Of a stretch of DNA of 64,000 nucleotides, positions 16,300 to 30,377 are shown in pieces (the first letter of the stretch is position 1; the number at the start of each line of letters is the position of its first letter). The notes beneath the pieces were generated by a model. That model was not told where the DNA came from and did no database searches. It saw nothing but the letters and a program-made list of their open reading frames with translations. The position numbers and the translations under genes are program-made. Source of the DNA: Anaerolineae bacterium (lineage in GTDB: Bacteria > Chloroflexota > Anaerolineae > Caldilineales > Caldilineaceae); assembly GCA_030432295.1 (NCBI GenBank), contig JAUIHI010000026.1, forward strand, positions 1-64,000, written 5' to 3'.

Positions 16300-18846
16300 C
16301 TATCGGTTTGAGCGCCCCGCCGACACGCCCCAACTGCGATAGGTGTCGCCCGTGGCAGGTCGGGCCGCGGGCGCAGGGGTAGAGCGGGGCGAAGTGATCT
16401 CCGGTAGATTGACCCAGGCCGGGTTCAGGTGAAATTCTTCGGTATTGGGAAAATCGTGGGTGTTCTCGTATTGGGCCTGAAACTCGTCCAGATTCTCCAG
16501 CAGCGTCACCGGCAGGCCGTGGACAATCCAGACTGCGTCCATGCGGCTGGTGTCGCCCGTGGGAACCCATTTGATGTCCTCCTGGCCGATCATAGCCATT
16601 GCCAGCCCGCTGTCGTCCTCACGGCTGGCGGGGGTGGCGGCCAGGCGGATGTGCTCCAAATCCCCGTCGTGGAAGCTGAAGCGGTCCGCGTCCCAGCGGA
16701 TGTAGGGGTTGAGCCGGTCCAGCCACTGATGCACCCGGTTGTTGGGCAGGGGGCGAGACTGGTCCACCTCCGTGCCGTACTGGACGCCGATGACGTGGCG
16801 GATGTCCACCAGCCGGCTGACCCGGTTGAGCAGGCCCGCGCTCTGGCTGATGCCCTCGGCCAGCAGATTGAAGACCTGATCCGCGGGCAGGGCGATGGCG
16901 TGGTGGAGCAGATTGTCGGTCAGTTTGCCCAGCAATGTCTGCCAGTCGTCGGGATAGACCGCTTGGGCCGCGCGCTGGTAGAAGTGCTGTAAATAGTCCC
17001 GGCCCACCACACCCGTCTCCAGCTCGTAATAGGTGCTGGTGCTGGGGCTGCCGTCGGGGATGCGGGGATCAATGCGGTCCGCGGCCCGGCTGGCCTCCTG
17101 ATTGGCCTGCACCAGCGCAGCCGCGGCGTTGTTCATTTGATTGCGGAAGACCTCGCGCATACGCTGGGCGTACTTGCCCAACTCATCCACCAGCACCCGT
17201 TCCAATGCGTCCCGGCGCTGGTAGAGACGGGCGCGGGCCTTGCGGGTGGAGAGGTCTTTGGACCGCTCCCTGGCCTGGCGGGGACTGAAGGCGGAGAGGA
17301 GCAGATCGCCGAAGCCACCGGCCAGTTGACCCACCCGTTCCGACGCGCCACCCTCCTGAGCCAGGAGTGAGCGCCAGCGGCCCCGGTCGTCCTCGTCCAC
17401 GGGCTGGTTATTGAGCAAGAAAAGCCGCTGGCGGCTGAGTGCTTCCTGGGGCGCGGTGGCCGGATTCAGTGGTCCCAGCAGTTCGGCCAGGGCAATCGCC
17501 CCGCGTAGACCGGTCTCAGTCATAGCCTGGCGGAAGGCGTTGTCCACAGCCTCTCGGAAGCCAAGCCACGCGCCCCGCTGCTCCTCGACTTCTGCCTCCA
17601 TCTCCTCCAGCCGGTCGTTGTCCAACGCCAGATAGCGGGAGCGCATAAAGGCCAGCAGCCCCTGCCAGATGGTCATCACCTGCTGGCGTTCGGCTGCGGT
17701 CATGGGCTGGCGGGGATCGCCCAGGCCTGGGCCGGAGGCGAAGCGGCGGATCACATCGGCCAGAAAGGCCCGTTGCCAGAAGGAAGTGATCGACTCATTG
17801 GGGGTGACCAGCGCTGATGCGGCAAAGCTGCTATAGACCAGATAGTTGCCGCTCTTGGGTTTGGGCTTCTCGCCCACCACTTCGGCAGAGGGGCCGCTAC
17901 CGCTCATTCGCTCACGCACGACGTTGACTTCCAACCCCAGAATTTCGCTGCTCAGGTGGCTGATGGCGGTCAGTTGGATCAGATGCGCGGCCAACTGCTC
18001 GGCGTCGGACTTGCGGGTCAGGCTGCGCCCGTCCCGGTTGGTGCGCCCGACCAGAAAGATGAAGTCGAAGGGTGCGTAGGGGGTGTCGGGGAGGGCGCGC
18101 TGCTCGCTGGGATAGAGTTCCTGGAACTGTTGGGTCTCTTGGAAATAGTTGAGTTCTTTGAGCGCGGCGTAGGCGTTGGCTTTGATGCGCCGCCGCTGCA
18201 AGTCGCTGCTGATTTCCTCTTCCAGCACATCGGGCAGGTAGAAGATACCCACAACCCGGGCATTGCTGCGCACCAGCGCCCGCACCCGGTGGGCCACATC
18301 CATAAACATCCCGGAGCCGGTTCCACCGCACAGGCTGCTGACGACGTAGACGAGCTGGTAGTTGCCCATCACCGGGAAGCCCCGATTCTGGGCCATTTCG
18401 TTGTCGCGGATTTTGTCCAGCCCCGCGTATTTTGTCTCCAGCAGCCGCTTGAAGTTGACGTAATTGCGGAAGAAGGAGAGGCGTCCAATCGGGCGCAACT
18501 GCTTGGCCCCGTTGTGGATATAGCCCAGGGGGATCGACGGGTAGTTCCACCAACTGGCGATCTCCGGGTGATTTTCCAGATTGTCCACCAGCCGGGTGGC
18601 GTCGAATTTGCCCATATAGGCGAACTCATCCGCGTAGAGGGGTTCCTGATCCAGCCGGTTGACCAGTGGCTCCGTGTCCAGGGCCAGGAGTTGGATCATT
18701 CCGGGCAGGGCGTCGCTGCCCCAGACGTTGCGCAGGCGGCGTTTGACCGCGCGCACGGTATTTGTACCCATCCCGCCCACGCCGATGACGAGGGTGGGGT
18801 AGATGGTGGGCTTTTCGCCGATAAGTTTCGCGCCGTTTAGATTCAT
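16300..18846 (-). CDS. Tubulin-like (FtsZ/tubulin superfamily) GTPase
   Basis: Large cytoplasmic protein of 848 residues. The N-terminal GTPase domain has the Rossmann start LVIGVGGMGTNTVRAVKRR (about 20-38) and the tubulin signature loop SLCGGTGSGMFMDVAHRV (about 172-189), which binds GTP phosphates in FtsZ and tubulin. A NAYAALKEL helix follows. The C-terminal 500 residues are helical and specific to this family (Tubulin_2-like). Members are predicted to polymerise and to act in membrane remodelling with a vWA protein, and such a gene lies upstream here. No membrane helix, so it probably acts on the inner membrane face. The intact GTPase motif contrasts with its downstream neighbour. Confidence 0.85.
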   Translation of the reverse strand: MNLNGAKLIGEKPTIYPTLVIGVGGMGTNTVRAVKRRLRNVWGSDALPGMIQLLALDTEPLVNRLDQEPLYADEFAYMGKFDATRLVDNLENHPEIASWWNYPSIPLGYIHNGAKQLRPIGRLSFFRNYVNFKRLLETKYAGLDKIRDNEMAQNRGFPVMGNYQLVYVVSSLCGGTGSGMFMDVAHRVRALVRSNARVVGIFYLPDVLEEEISSDLQRRRIKANAYAALKELNYFQETQQFQELYPSEQRALPDTPYAPFDFIFLVGRTNRDGRSLTRKSDAEQLAAHLIQLTAISHLSSEILGLEVNVVRERMSGSGPSAEVVGEKPKPKSGNYLVYSSFAASALVTPNESITSFWQRAFLADVIRRFASGPGLGDPRQPMTAAERQQVMTIWQGLLAFMRSRYLALDNDRLEEMEAEVEEQRGAWLGFREAVDNAFRQAMTETGLRGAIALAELLGPLNPATAPQEALSRQRLFLLNNQPVDEDDRGRWRSLLAQEGGASERVGQLAGGFGDLLLSAFSPRQARERSKDLSTRKARARLYQRRDALERVLVDELGKYAQRMREVFRNQMNNAAAALVQANQEASRAADRIDPRIPDGSPSTSTYYELETGVVGRDYLQHFYQRAAQAVYPDDWQTLLGKLTDNLLHHAIALPADQVFNLLAEGISQSAGLLNRVSRLVDIRHVIGVQYGTEVDQSRPLPNNRVHQWLDRLNPYIRWDADRFSFHDGDLEHIRLAATPASREDDSGLAMAMIGQEDIKWVPTGDTSRMDAVWIVHGLPVTLLENLDEFQAQYENTHDFPNTEEFHLNPAWVNLPEITSPRSTPAPAARPATGDTYRSWGVSAGRSNR

Positions 18847-22826: not shown

Positions 22827-22857
22827 ACGCTACTATTGTATCACAAAGATAAGAACT

Positions 22858-22986
22858 AGCGCCGGTTGAGTAGGCGGGTGCTTTTTCCCGCCGTATCGAA
22901 ACCAAGCGAGTTATATTCGAGATTGTCTGTAGACCCGCTCGCTTGGTTTCGATACGCCTCGAAGACTCGGCACTCAACCGGCGCTC
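22858..22986. repeat. Long palindrome, GCGCCGGTTGAG type
   Basis: Outer arms AGCGCCGGTTGAGT and ACTCAACCGGCGCT, inner arms CGTATCGAAACCAAGCGAG and CTCGCTTGGTTTCGATACG. It forms a long cruciform-capable repeat upstream of the vWA gene. A partial copy (GCGCCGGTTGAGCC ... GAAACCAAGCGGG) is at about 40794-40853. Confidence 0.8.
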
Positions 22987-22990
22987 ACTG

Positions 22991-23035
22991 GACTAAAAAA
23001 GGTGACAGTCACTTTCAGCAGTGACTGTCACCGGA
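22991..23035 (-). terminator. Intrinsic terminator of the DsbA operon (minus strand)
   Basis: Perfect 13-bp stem GGTGACAGTCACT / AGTGACTGTCACC (23001-23013 with 23020-23032) and 6-base loop. On the minus strand it is followed by TTTTTT (22995-23000). It ends transcription coming from the DsbA-like genes before the vWA gene. Confidence 0.92.
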
Positions 23036-23068: not shown

Positions 23069-23875
23069 CTATTGCGCCAGCAGCCTATCGAACAGTTGGG
23101 CAAAAGAATCGTAGGGAATCGCGCCCTGGATAATCTGCCCATTTGCATCGAAAGAGGGGCGCAGACGGATGCCCGCGGCCCGGCGTTCCTGGTCCATGTG
23201 GGCGATTTTGTCGATGACCGATTGGTCGCTCAGGCAGCCTTCGAAGGCGGCTGTGTCCAGCCCCAGTTCCCCGGCAAAGGCGACGAGGGTAGCATTTTCC
23301 AGACTCCAGAGTTCGCCCTGACGCTCGAAGATAGTGTCGTGCATACGCCAGAAGGCGATGGGAGACTGCTGTCCCGCGCACTCCGCGGCCTGGTGGGCCT
23401 GGGCAGATTGGCGGTGGTCGAGCACATGCCAGAAGGCCAACTGCACTTCGCCAGCGGCGACTTCGTTTTGCATAATTTCCGGTTCAACACGCAGCACGTG
23501 CGTGCGACAGGCACTTCAGAAAAAGTCCGAATAGTCGATGAGCCGGATGGGCGCCTCTGGATTACCCAATATATACAGCCCATCCACCAGCGCGGCGACT
23601 TGGGTCCAGTCTGGTTCGGGTTCCGGCGTACTGGTTGGCGCGGGTTCGACGACGGGCTGGGCAGTCGCAGTTGGCTCTGCGGCTGCGGGCACGGGTTCGG
23701 GTGTATCCGTCGGCGCGGGCGTATCCACCGGAAGCGGCGTCGCTGTCGCTTCTTCCGCAGCCACCGGGGCCGGGTTTTCGCTGGCGGCAGGCTGTGGCGG
23801 CGTAGCCGGACCACACCCTGCCATCAGCAGAAGGAGAAGCGCAAGGGGCGCTGCAAGTCGATGGGCGAAGGTCAT
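23069..23875 (-). CDS. DsbA-like lipoprotein, candidate selenoprotein with in-frame UGA
   Basis: Thioredoxin-fold oxidoreductase predicted to act outside the membrane. Read through a single UGA (minus strand 23518-23516) it is one frame of 268 residues: lipoprotein signal ending LLMAGC, Thr/Pro-rich linker, then a DsbA domain from about residue 93. The stop falls inside IDYSDFF-UGA-SACRTHVLR. The tandem DsbA upstream has FSDFQCPFCQRHT at the same place, so UGA replaces the first catalytic Cys (residue 120) while the second (Cys123) is kept. The rest is intact: FWRMHDTIFERQ, cis-Pro segment RLRPSFDANGQ and QGAIPYDSF. A SECIS-like hairpin follows the UGA. ATG 23875 overlaps the upstream stop (ATGA). 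Alternatives: nonsense mutation or sequencing error. Other genes here use UGA as a normal stop. Confidence 0.75.
23488..23504 (-). promoter_or_regulatory. Candidate bacterial SECIS hairpin
   Basis: On the minus strand, 11 bases after the in-frame UGA, CACGCA pairs with TGCGTG across the loop CGTGC; one further G-U pair extends the stem to 7 bp. The apical loop starts 17 bases after the UGA and has G as its second base. These values fit the usual bacterial SECIS pattern (short stem just downstream of UGA, G near the start of the loop). Evidence is by inspection only. Confidence 0.5.
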
Positions 23876-25326
23876 TCCTGACTTCCTTGGGCCTCAGCCA
23901 GAAGCTGGTTCAGTGCATCGCTGAACTGGTCTACGGGCAGTGCGCCGGGGATCAGTCGGCCCTGATTGTTGTAGATGACGACGAATGTGGGCGTGCCCTG
24001 GACAAACTGGGAGCCTTCGATAAGATCGTTTTGGACCTTCTGTTCCGTCGCCGGGTCAGCCCGACAGGCGGCCAACTGCTCGGCGTCCACGTCCAATTCG
24101 GCTGCGATTTCGCCAAAGACCGTTTCCAAATTGGGACCGGACCAGTCGTTCATCCGCTCGAAAAGGAGGTTGTGAGCTTCCCAGAACTGGCCCTGCTCTC
24201 CCACGCACTGGGCGAAAATGGCCGCGGTCGGCGCAAAGGGGTGGGTGGATTGAACGGGAAAGTTCTTGAAAATCCAGCGCACATCGCCGGTGTCCACAAA
24301 CTGCTCATCCAGAATGGGCTGGGTGTTGAGGGTGTGGCGCTGGCAGAAGGGGCACTGGAAGTCACTGAATTCGACGACTGTAATCGGTGCGTCCGGGTTG
24401 CCCCGCCAGAAGTCACCGGCCAGATTGGTGCCCGGCTGTTCGGGATCGTCGGCCCAATTCTCTGGGATTGCCCAGTTGGGAATCTGGCCCTGCTCCTGGG
24501 CCTGGGCCGCGGCCGGGTCTACAGGCGCGCCACCGTCGGCAATTGTTGTGAACCAATTGCTAAAGGTGTCATAGGGCTGGGCGCCGACCAACTGGTAGGC
24601 TTCGCCGGTTGCTTCGTCCACGAAATTAAAACTGGGCGTGCCCGTGAAGCCCAGGGCTTCGCCTTCGCTCAGGCTGGCTTTCACCTGGTCGGCAACGACG
24701 CTGTCGGATAGACAGGCGTTGTAGGCGGCAGCATCCGCGCCCGCTTCCCCAGCCAGACGGACGAAGACATCCGCGGGGTCGGGCAGATTGGCCCATTCGT
24801 CCTGGGTGCGGAAGAGCAGGTCGTGCATCCGCCAGAAGGGAACGACACCCTGTTCCATCACACAGTTAGCGGCGATAGAAGCGGGCGTAGCGTTAGGGTG
24901 GAGGGAGTCCAGCGGGAAGTCCCGGAAGACGAATTTGACCTGGCCGGGACGGACAAAGCTACTGGTCAGGGCTGGCTCTGTCTGCAGGACGTGGCGCTGG
25001 CAGAAGGGGCACTGGTAGTCGCTGTATTCGTAGACCGTGACCGGTGCATCGGCATTGCCCCGGTAGGGGTAGCCTTCGGCGGTGAAGCCAACAGGAATGC
25101 CGTCGAGGGTTTCCTGGTCGCTGGCTGGTTCGGCGGCAGCTGGTTCTTCTGCGGTTAGGGCAGGCGCAGTGGAGACGGCTGTGTCCACTGCTGTCTCCTC
25201 TGTCCCTGCTTGTGGGGATTGCAGAATGGGGGTCTGGCAGGCCGTTAGGATGAATAGGAGTCCAATGAGAAGGGAGATGCCCTTCCATCGGGCAATGGAC
25301 CATTTGGAAATGGGACCAAAAAACAT
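23872..25326 (-). CDS. Tandem DsbA-domain lipoprotein
   Basis: Exported thiol oxidoreductase with two DsbA/thioredoxin-fold domains in one 484-residue chain. A lipoprotein signal (LLFILTACQTP, lipid Cys about residue 30) is followed by domain 1 (about 85-265) with EYSDYQCPFCQRH, Cys106 and Cys109, and domain 2 (about 300-480) with EFSDFQCPFCQRH, Cys325 and Cys328. Each domain keeps a cis-Pro segment (TGTPSFNFVD; QGTPTFVVIYNNQG) and the HDLLF / HNLLF helix. It probably forms or isomerises disulfides in surface proteins. Transcribed with the downstream UGA-containing DsbA gene (4-base ATGA overlap). A sigma70-like promoter lies upstream. Confidence 0.92.
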   Translation of the reverse strand: MFFGPISKWSIARWKGISLLIGLLFILTACQTPILQSPQAGTEETAVDTAVSTAPALTAEEPAAAEPASDQETLDGIPVGFTAEGYPYRGNADAPVTVYEYSDYQCPFCQRHVLQTEPALTSSFVRPGQVKFVFRDFPLDSLHPNATPASIAANCVMEQGVVPFWRMHDLLFRTQDEWANLPDPADVFVRLAGEAGADAAAYNACLSDSVVADQVKASLSEGEALGFTGTPSFNFVDEATGEAYQLVGAQPYDTFSNWFTTIADGGAPVDPAAAQAQEQGQIPNWAIPENWADDPEQPGTNLAGDFWRGNPDAPITVVEFSDFQCPFCQRHTLNTQPILDEQFVDTGDVRWIFKNFPVQSTHPFAPTAAIFAQCVGEQGQFWEAHNLLFERMNDWSGPNLETVFGEIAAELDVDAEQLAACRADPATEQKVQNDLIEGSQFVQGTPTFVVIYNNQGRLIPGALPVDQFSDALNQLLAEAQGSQE

Positions 25327-26884: not shown

Positions 26885-26958
26885 TCGTTTGCGCCTGATT
26901 GCTGGGGCAAGCCAAATTCGCACCGGCGCGGAGACAAATGGTGTCTCCGTCTTTTTTT
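26885..26958 (+). promoter_or_regulatory. Structured leader with terminator hairpin before cysD
   Basis: A perfect 8-bp stem CGGAGACA / TGTCTCCG (26929-26936 with 26942-26949) followed by TCTTTTTTT forms a plus-strand intrinsic terminator. It lies only about 40 bases before cysD and has no plus-strand gene upstream to end. GCGCC (26891-26895) can pair with GGCGC (26925-26929), which would compete with the base of the terminator stem. This looks like a transcription attenuator. I do not recognise a known riboswitch class. The rest of the 244-base divergent gap shows no clear feature. Confidence 0.5.
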
Positions 26959-26995
26959 GATAAATCGTTATCTACTACTGAATGTCATATACCTT

Positions 26996-27901
26996 ATGGA
27001 CAGCATCAGCAACCGCCATTTACGCCATCTGGAAGCCGAAGCCATCTATGTGCTGCGAGAAGTGGCGGCCCAATTTGAACGCCCACACCTCCTCTTTTCT
27101 GGCGGTAAAGATTCGATTGTTCTCACCCACTTGTCCCAAAAAGCTTTCCATCCGGGCAAAATCCCCTTTACGCTGCTCCACATTGACACCGGCCATAACT
27201 TCCCCGAGACGCTCCAGTTCCGCGACGATCTGGTGCAGCGGTTGGGCGTGCGGCTGCTGGTACGTTATGTGCAGGACTCGATCGATCGGGGGCGGGTGGT
27301 GGAAGAGACGGGACCCACGGCCAGCCGCAACGGTTTGCAGACCGTCACGTTGCTCGATGCGCTGACAGAACTGCGGGTTGACGCAGCGATGGGCGGCGCA
27401 CGGCGGGACGAGGAGAAAGCACGGGCCAAGGAGCGCTTTTTTTCCCATCGGGACTCCTTTGGCCAGTGGGACCCGAAGAATCAGCGCCCGGAACTCTGGA
27501 ACCTGTACAACGGGCGCAAAAACAGCGGCGAGCATTTCCGCATCTTTCCCATCAGCAACTGGACCGAACTGGATGTCTGGCAGTATATCGCCCACGAGGA
27601 GATTCCCCTACCCAATCTCTACTTTTCCCATACCCGCGAGATCATCGACCGGGGCGGGATTCTGTTGGCCGCGTCGGATGTGGTGCCGCCACTGCCCGGT
27701 GAAAACGTCGCCGACCGGGTCGTCCGCTTCCGCACCATCGGCGATATGACCTGCACCGGCGCTGTGGAATCCCACGCATCCACCATCGACGACATCATCG
27801 AAGAAGTCGCCGCGGCCCGTGTCACCGAACGGGGAACCCGCTCGGATGATCGCCGCTCGGAGGCCGCGATGGAAGATCGCAAGCGGCAGGGCTATTTTTA
27901 G
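26996..27901 (+). CDS. cysD: Sulfate adenylyltransferase subunit 2 (CysD)
   Basis: Catalytic subunit that makes adenosine 5'-phosphosulfate (APS) from ATP and sulfate, driven by the GTPase CysN. The 301-residue product has the PP-motif FSGGKDSIVLTHL (about 35-47), DTGHNFPETLQFRD, and AMGGARRDEEKARAKER, all diagnostic for CysD, and the C-terminal SDDRRSEAAMEDRKRQGYF. ATG 26996 gives the normal N-terminus (MDSISNRHLRHLEAEAI); an upstream TTG at 26957 would overlap the terminator hairpin and is unlikely. It is separated from cysN by a four-helix-bundle gene, an unusual interruption of the cysDN pair. Confidence 0.95.
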   Translation: MDSISNRHLRHLEAEAIYVLREVAAQFERPHLLFSGGKDSIVLTHLSQKAFHPGKIPFTLLHIDTGHNFPETLQFRDDLVQRLGVRLLVRYVQDSIDRGRVVEETGPTASRNGLQTVTLLDALTELRVDAAMGGARRDEEKARAKERFFSHRDSFGQWDPKNQRPELWNLYNGRKNSGEHFRIFPISNWTELDVWQYIAHEEIPLPNLYFSHTREIIDRGGILLAASDVVPPLPGENVADRVVRFRTIGDMTCTGAVESHASTIDDIIEEVAAARVTERGTRSDDRRSEAAMEDRKRQGYF

Positions 27902-27904
27902 GGA

Positions 27905-28495
27905 GGCTGGGGACTGGGGATCGGGGATCGGGGACTGGGTGTTTGTTTGCCGGTAACACCGAAGCATTGGGAAAATGGAGAGGTGGGATGTCTGAGCGTG
28001 GATTTGAGGGATTGGATTTTTATCGGGATAGCCTGAAATTATTGAAGGCGGCTTATCGGCTGGCTGGCTCTTTGCCCGATTTTGAGCGGTACAATTTGGC
28101 CGATCAACTGCGGCGGGCGGTGGTCAGCATCGGTCTGAATATCGCCGAGGGGTATGGGCGATATCACTTTTTGGACCGACTGCGTTTTATGTACATTGCG
28201 AGGGGATCACTCAATGAGACATTGAGTTGCTTTGTGATTGCCGAGCAACTGGAATACTGCGATGCCACCCAATTGGAGTGGACACGACAGTTGGTCGGTA
28301 CTATTGAGAAAAACCTCAACGGATATTGCCGCTCCATTCGCCAGCTACAGCAGGGCGGCGATGAATTCGGTGCCCGCTATATCTCTGAAGAACACGAATC
28401 CTATATTGTCCCCAATCAAGAAATGGCAGAATGACGATGAATCTTCCAATCCCCAGTCTCCAATCCCCAATCCCCAATCCCCAATCCCCACTCTC
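27905..28495 (+). mobile_element. Putative element: four-helix-bundle gene flanked by inverted G-rich/C-rich repeats
   Basis: Left flank (27907-27938) is GGGGACTGGGGATCGGGG-type repeats; right flank (28447-28491) is the complementary CCCCAGTCTCCAATCCCC-type repeats. Together they enclose the four-helix-bundle gene between cysD and cysN. The same paired arms without a gene occur at 30372-30455 and twice inside the dehydrogenase gene. This suggests a mobile or expanding repeat family with one gene-bearing member. No transposase or target duplication was found, so mobility is inference. Confidence 0.45.
27988..28434 (+). CDS. Four-helix-bundle protein (S23/Avd-like)
   Basis: 148-residue all-helical protein of the family found in 23S rRNA intervening sequences and in Avd-like proteins. 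Visible family features: FEGLDFYRDSLKLLKAAYRL, FERYNLADQLRRAVVSIGLNIAEGYG (split here across about residues 33-58) and RFMYIARGSLNETLSCFVIAEQL. Function in the cell is unclear; members form pentamers and may bind nucleic acid. I chose ATG 27988, preceded by GGAGAGGTGGG, over an upstream start in the repeat arm. Its stop overlaps the cysN start (ATGA). It is out of place in a sulfate operon and flanked by inverted repeats, suggesting insertion. Confidence 0.85.
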   Translation: MSERGFEGLDFYRDSLKLLKAAYRLAGSLPDFERYNLADQLRRAVVSIGLNIAEGYGRYHFLDRLRFMYIARGSLNETLSCFVIAEQLEYCDATQLEWTRQLVGTIEKNLNGYCRSIRQLQQGGDEFGARYISEEHESYIVPNQEMAE

Positions 28496-30377
28496 TTCCG
28501 ACCTCCTCCGCTTCACCACCGCGGGGAGTGTGGACGATGGCAAGAGCACCCTCATCGGGCGGCTGCTCTACGACGCCAAGTCGATCTTTGAAGATCAGAT
28601 GGAAGCGGTGGAGCAGGCCAGCCAGGGACGGGGCGATCCCTATGTGGATCTGGCCCTGCTTACCGACGGGCTGCGGGCCGAGCGGGAGCAGGGCATTACC
28701 ATCGATGTGGCCTATCGCTATTTCGCCACACCCCGGCGCAAATTTATTATCGCGGACACGCCGGGGCACATCCAATACACCCGCAATATGGTGACAGGCG
28801 CATCCACTGCCGAATTGGCGATTATTCTGGTGGACGCCCGCAAAGGGGTGTTGACCCAATCCAAACGCCACGCCTTTCTTTCCACGCTGTTGCAAATCCC
28901 CCATCTGGTGGTGGCCATCAACAAAATGGATCTGGTGGAGTACCGGGAGGATGTCTATGACCGCATTGTTGAGGACTTTCGGGAGTTCTCGGCCAAGCTG
29001 GACGTGCAGGATGTGGTCTATATTCCGATGTCTGCGCTGCTGGGCGACAATGTGGTGGAGAAGAGCGAGCAGATGCCCTGGTACGACGGCTCTACGCTCC
29101 TCCACCATTTGGAGACGGTGAACACCGGTGCCACCCGCAATTCGGTCGATTTCCGCTTTCCCGTCCAATACGTCATCCGTCCCACCCAGGATTTTCGCGG
29201 TTACGCCGGGCAAGTGGCATCCGGGCGGGTTTCCGTGGGCGAAGAAGTGGTTGTCCTGCCCTCGGGCCTGAGCAGCCGGGTGGCTTCTCTGGTCACATTC
29301 GACGGTGAGCAGGAAGAGGCCAACGCGGGCGAGTCGATTGTCATTACACTCGAAGACGACATCGATGTGAGCCGGGGCAATATGCTGGTGCGTACCCGCA
29401 ATCTGCCCCACAAATCCAACCGGCTGGATGTCACCCTCTGCTGGATGAGCGAGACCCCCCTGGACCCCAAAGCCAGCTATTGGCTGCAACACACCACCCG
29501 CAGCGTGCGCGCCCTGGTCTCCGAATTGAACTACCGGATCGATGTGGATACAATGCACCGGGAGGAGACGGATACGCTCCAACTGAACGAGATCGGGCGT
29601 GTGCAACTGACCACCACCGAGCCGCTCTTTTTCGATCCCTATCAGCTCAACCGCACGACGGGCAACTTTATTCTGATCGATCCCTACACCAACAGCACAG
29701 TGGCTGCTGGGATGATCCGCGATCGCTCCCGACAGGTGGACGAACTGGTGGATGTGACCAGCCGGGGCGAGCGGCCTGCTTCCGAAAATGTGGTCTGGGA
29801 GCAAGGAACCATCAGCCGGGCCATGCGCGAGACGCTCAACGGCCACAAAGCCGCAGTGCTGTGGATGACCGGCCTCTCTGGTTCGGGCAAATCGACGGTC
29901 AGCCGGCTGTTGGAGCAGCGACTCTATCGGATGGGGTGCCACACCTTCTATCTGGACGGGGACAATCTGCGCCACGGTTTGAACGGGGATTTGGGCTTTG
30001 CGCCGGAAGATCGCAAAGAGAATATCCGGCGGGTGGGAGAAGTGGCGAAACTGGCCTTTGATCACGCCAATCTGGTGCTCTGTACGTTCATTTCTCCCTA
30101 CGCGGCGGATCGGGATTTTGCCCGCTCTCTGCTGCCGGAGGGACGTTTCTTCGAGATTTATGTAAAATGTGATATTGAAGTGGTCAAGCGCAGGGATCCC
30201 AAAGGTCTCTATGCCAAGGCGTTGGCTGGGGAGATCAAAGGTTTTACGGGTATTGACGCCCCCTACGAGGAACCTGTCCAGCCGGAACTGGTGGTGGAGA
30301 CCGATCTGCACAGCGCGGACGAACTAGTAGAGCAGATTCTGGACGCACTGCGCCGGGCGGGGATTGTGGGAGAGTAG
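28431..30377 (+). CDS. cysNC: Bifunctional sulfate adenylyltransferase subunit 1 / adenylylsulfate kinase (CysNC)
   Basis: Fusion of the CysN GTPase and the CysC kinase, 648 residues, converting sulfate to APS with CysD and then to PAPS. The GTPase part has G1 GSVDDGKST (about 32-40), the ADTPGHIQYTRNMVTGAST segment (about 109) and NKMD (about 164). The kinase part starts near 465 with the P-loop GLSGSGKST (about 481) and FYLDGDNLRHGLNGDLGF. The first 25 residues are encoded by the C-rich repeat arm (PIPNPQSP units) and are not part of the normal enzyme, whose usual start corresponds to LLRFTTAGSVDDGK. The start overlaps the four-helix-bundle stop codon, so translation is probably coupled. 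Confidence 0.95.
   Translation: MTMNLPIPSLQSPIPNPQSPLSSDLLRFTTAGSVDDGKSTLIGRLLYDAKSIFEDQMEAVEQASQGRGDPYVDLALLTDGLRAEREQGITIDVAYRYFATPRRKFIIADTPGHIQYTRNMVTGASTAELAIILVDARKGVLTQSKRHAFLSTLLQIPHLVVAINKMDLVEYREDVYDRIVEDFREFSAKLDVQDVVYIPMSALLGDNVVEKSEQMPWYDGSTLLHHLETVNTGATRNSVDFRFPVQYVIRPTQDFRGYAGQVASGRVSVGEEVVVLPSGLSSRVASLVTFDGEQEEANAGESIVITLEDDIDVSRGNMLVRTRNLPHKSNRLDVTLCWMSETPLDPKASYWLQHTTRSVRALVSELNYRIDVDTMHREETDTLQLNEIGRVQLTTTEPLFFDPYQLNRTTGNFILIDPYTNSTVAAGMIRDRSRQVDELVDVTSRGERPASENVVWEQGTISRAMRETLNGHKAAVLWMTGLSGSGKSTVSRLLEQRLYRMGCHTFYLDGDNLRHGLNGDLGFAPEDRKENIRRVGEVAKLAFDHANLVLCTFISPYAADRDFARSLLPEGRFFEIYVKCDIEVVKRRDPKGLYAKALAGEIKGFTGIDAPYEEPVQPELVVETDLHSADELVEQILDALRRAGIVGE

Follow-up and report, generated by a model that had tools for sequence, protein, structure and literature searches.

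A predicted selenocysteine-containing DsbA-like lipoprotein of the NF041057 family in an Anaerolineae genome, with Sec and Cys forms across Chloroflexota

Selenoproteins of the thiol oxidoreductase type have been known in bacteria for some time. DsbG-like and DsbA-like selenoproteins go back to the surveys of 2005-2006 (PMC1088965, PMC1794560), and the DsbG-like selenoprotein has been placed under the Pfam family Thioredoxin_4 (PMC9312934). A 2026 review lists the NCBIfam family NF041057 as the 'DsbG-like protein', a UxxC selenoprotein (PMC13188914). No tested function for NF041057 was found in the literature. The protein described here scores 283.4 bits against the NF041057 profile, for which the cut-off is 190, and covers profile positions 3-246 of 247. 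Since this score lies above the cut-off and the family has already been listed in selenoproteomes, the protein is of a known kind. Judged by its sequence, it is an added member of an already named selenoprotein family, not the founder of a new one.

The window is the whole stretch of DNA analysed, 64,000 nucleotides of contig JAUIHI010000026.1. On its minus strand, positions 23069-23875 hold a single frame of 268 codons, running from ATG (23875-23873) to TAG (23071-23069) and interrupted solely by a TGA at codon 120 (23518-23516). With TGA translated as U, the 268-aa product matches Pfam Thioredoxin_4 (81.8 bits, residues 102-263), and the match spans the TGA; Pfam DSBA is matched as well. The TGA stands at the N-terminal, nucleophilic residue of a U-S-A-C motif, and the resolving cysteine of this UxxC, Cys123 (23507-23509, minus strand), is invariant both in the alignment of the core set of relatives (A3) and in a further alignment (A4). 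The first-pass annotation had proposed a DsbA-like gene with one UGA in an otherwise continuous frame, placed at the first position of the redox motif, and both points hold. We put the probability at roughly 95% that the gene encodes an extracytoplasmic, lipid-anchored DsbA/Thioredoxin_4 thiol oxidoreductase containing selenocysteine, a figure that covers the selenoprotein reading alone and not the direction of electron flow. For a computational case, the selenoprotein reading appears about as strong as such a reading can be. A gene caller that stops translation at the UGA is left with 119 aa and loses the active site.

The gene follows a second Dsb gene on the same strand. This upstream gene (23872-25326, minus strand) encodes a tandem DsbA lipoprotein of 484 aa with two CPFC domains, and its end shares an ATGA (23872-23875) with the start of the Sec gene, which agrees with the coupling to a Cys-type tandem DsbA claimed earlier. 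A strong intrinsic terminator, a 13-bp stem followed by TTTTTT, lies at 23001-23032 (minus strand), 36 nt past the TAG. Because of the overlap and the terminator, the two genes look like one transcription unit that would cover the entire frame. Among the neighbourhoods examined, the order of tandem Cys DsbA and Sec gene occurs in this genome only.

Other features surround this unit. At 22855-22994 there is a palindromic repeat, about 140 bp long, with ends ...GCCGGTTGAG / CTCAACCGGC...; it occurs in about 40 copies in the genome at 79-90% identity and resembles a MITE or an element of the REP type. The stretch 26957-30377 (plus strand), divergent from the Dsb unit, encodes a CysD-like protein with a PAPS-reductase domain and a sulfate activation protein that resembles a CysN/CysC fusion. 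Further away, 16300-18846 (minus strand) encodes an 848-aa tubulin-like protein of the Tubulin_2 family (205 bits), next to a gene whose 1001-aa product matches no Pfam family; a VWA-domain protein is encoded close by.

The protein has the anatomy of an exported DsbA. Cys21 (MAG-C; 23813-23815, minus strand) is the predicted lipid anchor at the end of a lipobox, in a column at least 90% conserved. A Pro/Thr/Ala-rich linker follows to about residue 95, modelled with pLDDT mostly 54-83. From residue 101 on, pLDDT in the AlphaFold model is mostly 91-98, and the domain shows the features of DsbA/Thioredoxin_4 proteins: a thioredoxin fold with a helical insert, a redox pair, and a conserved proline at the cis-Pro place. 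This proline is Pro240 (23156-23158, minus strand), predicted as cis by family and preceded by arginine (R-P). U120 directly precedes helix 121-139, so the U120-x-x-C123 pair would lie at the N-terminal end of the domain's first helix, facing the cis-proline. Two more cysteines, Cys166 (23378-23380) and Cys214 (23234-23236), both on the minus strand, are invariant in the core set. By analogy with C97/C146 of Wolbachia alpha-DsbA1, whose spacing is similar, they probably form a second, structural disulfide. The best fold matches in the PDB are alpha-DsbA1, BdbD and a Corynebacterium DsbA.

We searched 400 genomes of the phylum Chloroflexota for relatives, and 136 matched at E<=1e-15. The nearest relative found is just 43% identical to the window protein. 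In all 28 TGA-bearing sequences examined, the window's included, the TGA opens a U-x-x-C motif. In those of them that were aligned, the TGAs share a single column, occupied by Cys in the other sequences (L057, a protein of two domains, entered the alignment with its other domain), and among close relatives TGA and Cys alternate there. The UGA/Cys alternation to be looked for among relatives was thus found, at a single column, and the coding frame beyond the TGA is kept, as had been claimed, with conservation to the C-terminus. Within Chloroflexota, DsbA-like selenoproteins are not the rarity that the first-pass annotation took them for. A scan of genome contigs with the window protein alone found no relatives. 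The same scan with an alignment found relatives in Chloroflexales, Roseiflexus, Anaerolineae and others, in Cys forms only because its pattern required a Cys codon.

Of 25 genomes with a TGA form, 24 had a SelA hit above the cut-off; of the 38 others, 26 did (Fisher p = 0.0099, kinship ignored). The only TGA genome without such a hit, G217, is 86% complete. Close Cys orthologues occur mostly where SelA is missing, in five genomes lacking SelA (G359, G166, G214, G323, G341) and in two that have it (G274, G086). On the tree, eight changes between Sec and Cys are required, at least six of them forced by well-supported branches. The window protein belongs to a core clade (support 98/98) made up of 19 Sec and 7 Cys rows, and it groups there with G372 (97/88). 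The residue before the cis-proline is Arg or Gln throughout this clade, in Sec and Cys forms alike, and Thr in nearly all outsiders and in both domains of the tandem DsbA. Sec-DsbA proteins are, then, a common feature of Chloroflexota, with frequent switching between Sec and Cys.

Relatives within and outside the core clade differ in their fit to NF041057. Five other core-clade relatives were scored, and with the window protein all six lie above the cut-off. Seven more distant UxxC forms were scanned, and all seven fall below it, at 119-182 bits. These distant forms mostly carry Thr before the cis-proline and have hairpins at other positions, and they may represent separate Sec lineages. Other arrangements were also seen. 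L054 (G294) and L058 (G252) each carry a pair of neighbouring Sec-DsbA genes with a CcdA-like gene after them. In G184, L057 encodes a 599-aa double DsbA whose first domain has Sec (UPYC) and whose second has Cys (CPFC). In several Chloroflexota genomes, a short exported Thr/Pro-rich protein without a Pfam match comes after the Sec gene (L070, 6646-7308; L072, 6948-7712; and relatives).

The neighbourhoods of the relatives bear on function. In six genomes (G113, G252, G294, G201, G217, G097), a co-directional DsbD_TM/CcdA-like gene lies 4-49 nt downstream of the Sec gene, and in G233 such a gene lies within the same range of distances, on the same strand, downstream of a Cys form. Pfam confirmed the DsbD_TM/CcdA identity for two of these downstream genes. 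No paper connecting CcdA with such a selenoprotein was found in the literature searched, and the adjacency in the six genomes may be a new observation. It favours a supply of electrons from the cytoplasm and a reducing role. The host genome encodes one CcdA and one VKOR-domain protein, neither near the Sec gene, and no shared neighbour was found by which this copy could be tied either to CcdA or to the short exported protein. Since CcdA lies elsewhere in this genome, which way the electrons flow is an inference.

Our preferred mechanism runs in the reducing direction, which we consider the most likely one at about even odds. Cytoplasmic thioredoxin would supply the electrons, and a membrane protein of the CcdA/DsbD type would hand them on to the Sec-Cys pair. 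The fold and the family suggest that U120 and C123 perform thiol-disulfide exchange in which Sec makes the attack. The reduced pair may then reduce disulfides or oxidised thiols in other envelope proteins, and among the possible targets is the tandem DsbA of Cys type encoded on the same transcript. The opposite direction, in which an oxidase would pass its selenenyl-sulfide bond on to envelope proteins as they fold and be re-oxidised by VKOR, contests this direction only and leaves the selenoprotein reading intact. It fits the VKOR-domain protein of the host and the closest structural folds, which include BdbD, alpha-DsbA1 and DsbA and among them oxidases. Against it stand the Sec genes that adjoin CcdA in related genomes and the general chemistry of selenium: the potential of the Se-S bond is lower than that of S-S, which favours use as a reductase or peroxidase. 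On balance we think an oxidase unlikely, and peroxide or other chemistry less likely still. The CcdA linkage that underlies the reducing mechanism offers an initial clue to function that can be put to the test.

A wider reading, which we offer tentatively and with the odds somewhat against it, is that the Chloroflexota Sec-DsbA lipoproteins form a selenium-based extracytoplasmic reducing pathway fed by CcdA. This pathway would have arisen or been kept in several branches, namely the NF041057 core clade with R/Q before the cis-proline and the T-cis-Pro lineages below the cut-off. Sec would have given way to Cys repeatedly, often in genomes without SelA.

Reading UGA 120 as Sec calls for a SECIS element, and a bacterial SECIS hairpin lies at 23487-23505 (minus strand). 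Its stem CACGCA/TGCGTG has 6 bp, or 7 when an outer G-U pair is counted, and closes a 5-nt loop, CGTGC (23498-23494). The loop begins at base 18 past the UGA, a spacing of 17 nt, exactly as first proposed. The hairpin also fits the general bacterial rule (PMC13188914), which sets a loop of 3-9 nt, a stem of 4-16 bp, a spacing of 16-37 nt and a G in loop bases 1-2. With a 4-bp stem, however, 61% of random window positions pass this rule, so it says little on one sequence alone. Six paired positions at exactly that spot occur at 0.34% of window positions, and the folding stability of the 73-nt stretch by itself is ordinary against shuffled sequence (z = 0.33).

The weight comes instead from covariation among the Sec forms. 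In 18 distinct Sec rows, 93.5% of cells are paired, with 22 cells showing double-sided changes against 5.0 in shuffles. Covariation is 0.637 against 0.201 in shuffles, none of the 500 shuffles reaches as high, and slid versions of the hairpin give at most 0.136. In 14 Cys rows, 45.2% of cells pair in the same structure, which is the shuffle level. Throughout the core clade the hairpin keeps one fixed place, with the loop starting at base 18 and mostly reading CGTG-pyrimidine; among the distant Sec forms, several show a CGTG loop of this kind shifted a few bases downstream, and others have a different hairpin. On this comparative evidence the window hairpin appears to be far more than chance. 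SelB-bound Sec-tRNA would decode UGA 120 as Sec under the guidance of this hairpin 17 nt downstream, a step for which the comparative evidence is strong.

The machinery for this step is encoded in the host. The assembly (G000; 6.7 Mb, 100% complete) holds all four components that the first-pass annotation had named for a search: a tRNA-Sec (66.9 bits; ARAGORN anticodon TCA), SelA (577.9 bits), SelB and SelD (334.9 bits). SelD (L020, 1501-2493; G000:C47:64444-65436) has its own in-frame TGA, within MVACAGUASK, and is a probable selenoprotein in its own right, so this genome likely has at least one more besides the DsbA-like one. UGA is also an ordinary stop here, as it terminates the tandem DsbA gene at 23872. 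This bears on the idea that a changed genetic code or simple readthrough inserts Cys or Trp at codon 120. The alignment of the UGA with Cys would suit such an insertion, but UGA ends ordinary genes, the genome has SelA, SelB and tRNA-Sec, and only UGA forms retain the hairpin. We rejected a changed code on these grounds and regard an ordinary amino acid at this site as very improbable. A nonsense mutation in a recent pseudogene, or a sequencing error, is what a lone TGA in an open frame would look like in one genome, but the same TGA column recurs in many independent genomes, alternates only with Cys, and comes with a covarying hairpin, a conserved downstream frame and Sec machinery, which refutes this account, as first suspected, and leaves it a negligible chance.

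With codon 120 read as Sec, the protein can be set beside its described counterparts. It resembles the 'DsbG-like' UxxC selenoprotein (PMC1088965, PMC1794560, PMC13188914) through the NF041057 mapping and Thioredoxin_4. It is unlike DsbG in the E. coli sense: Pfam gives Thioredoxin_4/DSBA domains only, and the N-terminal dimerisation domain of the E. coli-type DsbG/DsbC isomerases was not found in it, residues 22-95 being a low-complexity linker. With the 'DsbA-like' UxxC selenoprotein, form 1 (PF01323; PMC1088965, PMC13188914), it shares the DSBA fold and UxxC, but that is a separately listed family, and the window protein, which belongs to NF041057, has its higher score as Thioredoxin_4. The same fold is found in Bacillus subtilis BdbD and Wolbachia alpha-DsbA1 (PDB 3eu3, 3f4r), with TM 0.78-0.82 over the solved chain; these two are about 20% identical to the window protein and use Cys, not Sec, and the Arg before the cis-proline is a feature of the window protein. 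The closest counterpart is the NF041057 'Rcas_1661 family thioredoxin-like (seleno)lipoprotein', which is likewise a lipoprotein with UxxC or CxxC, in Sec or Cys form. No family-defining feature differs in the window protein, which adds a well-supported member to NF041057.
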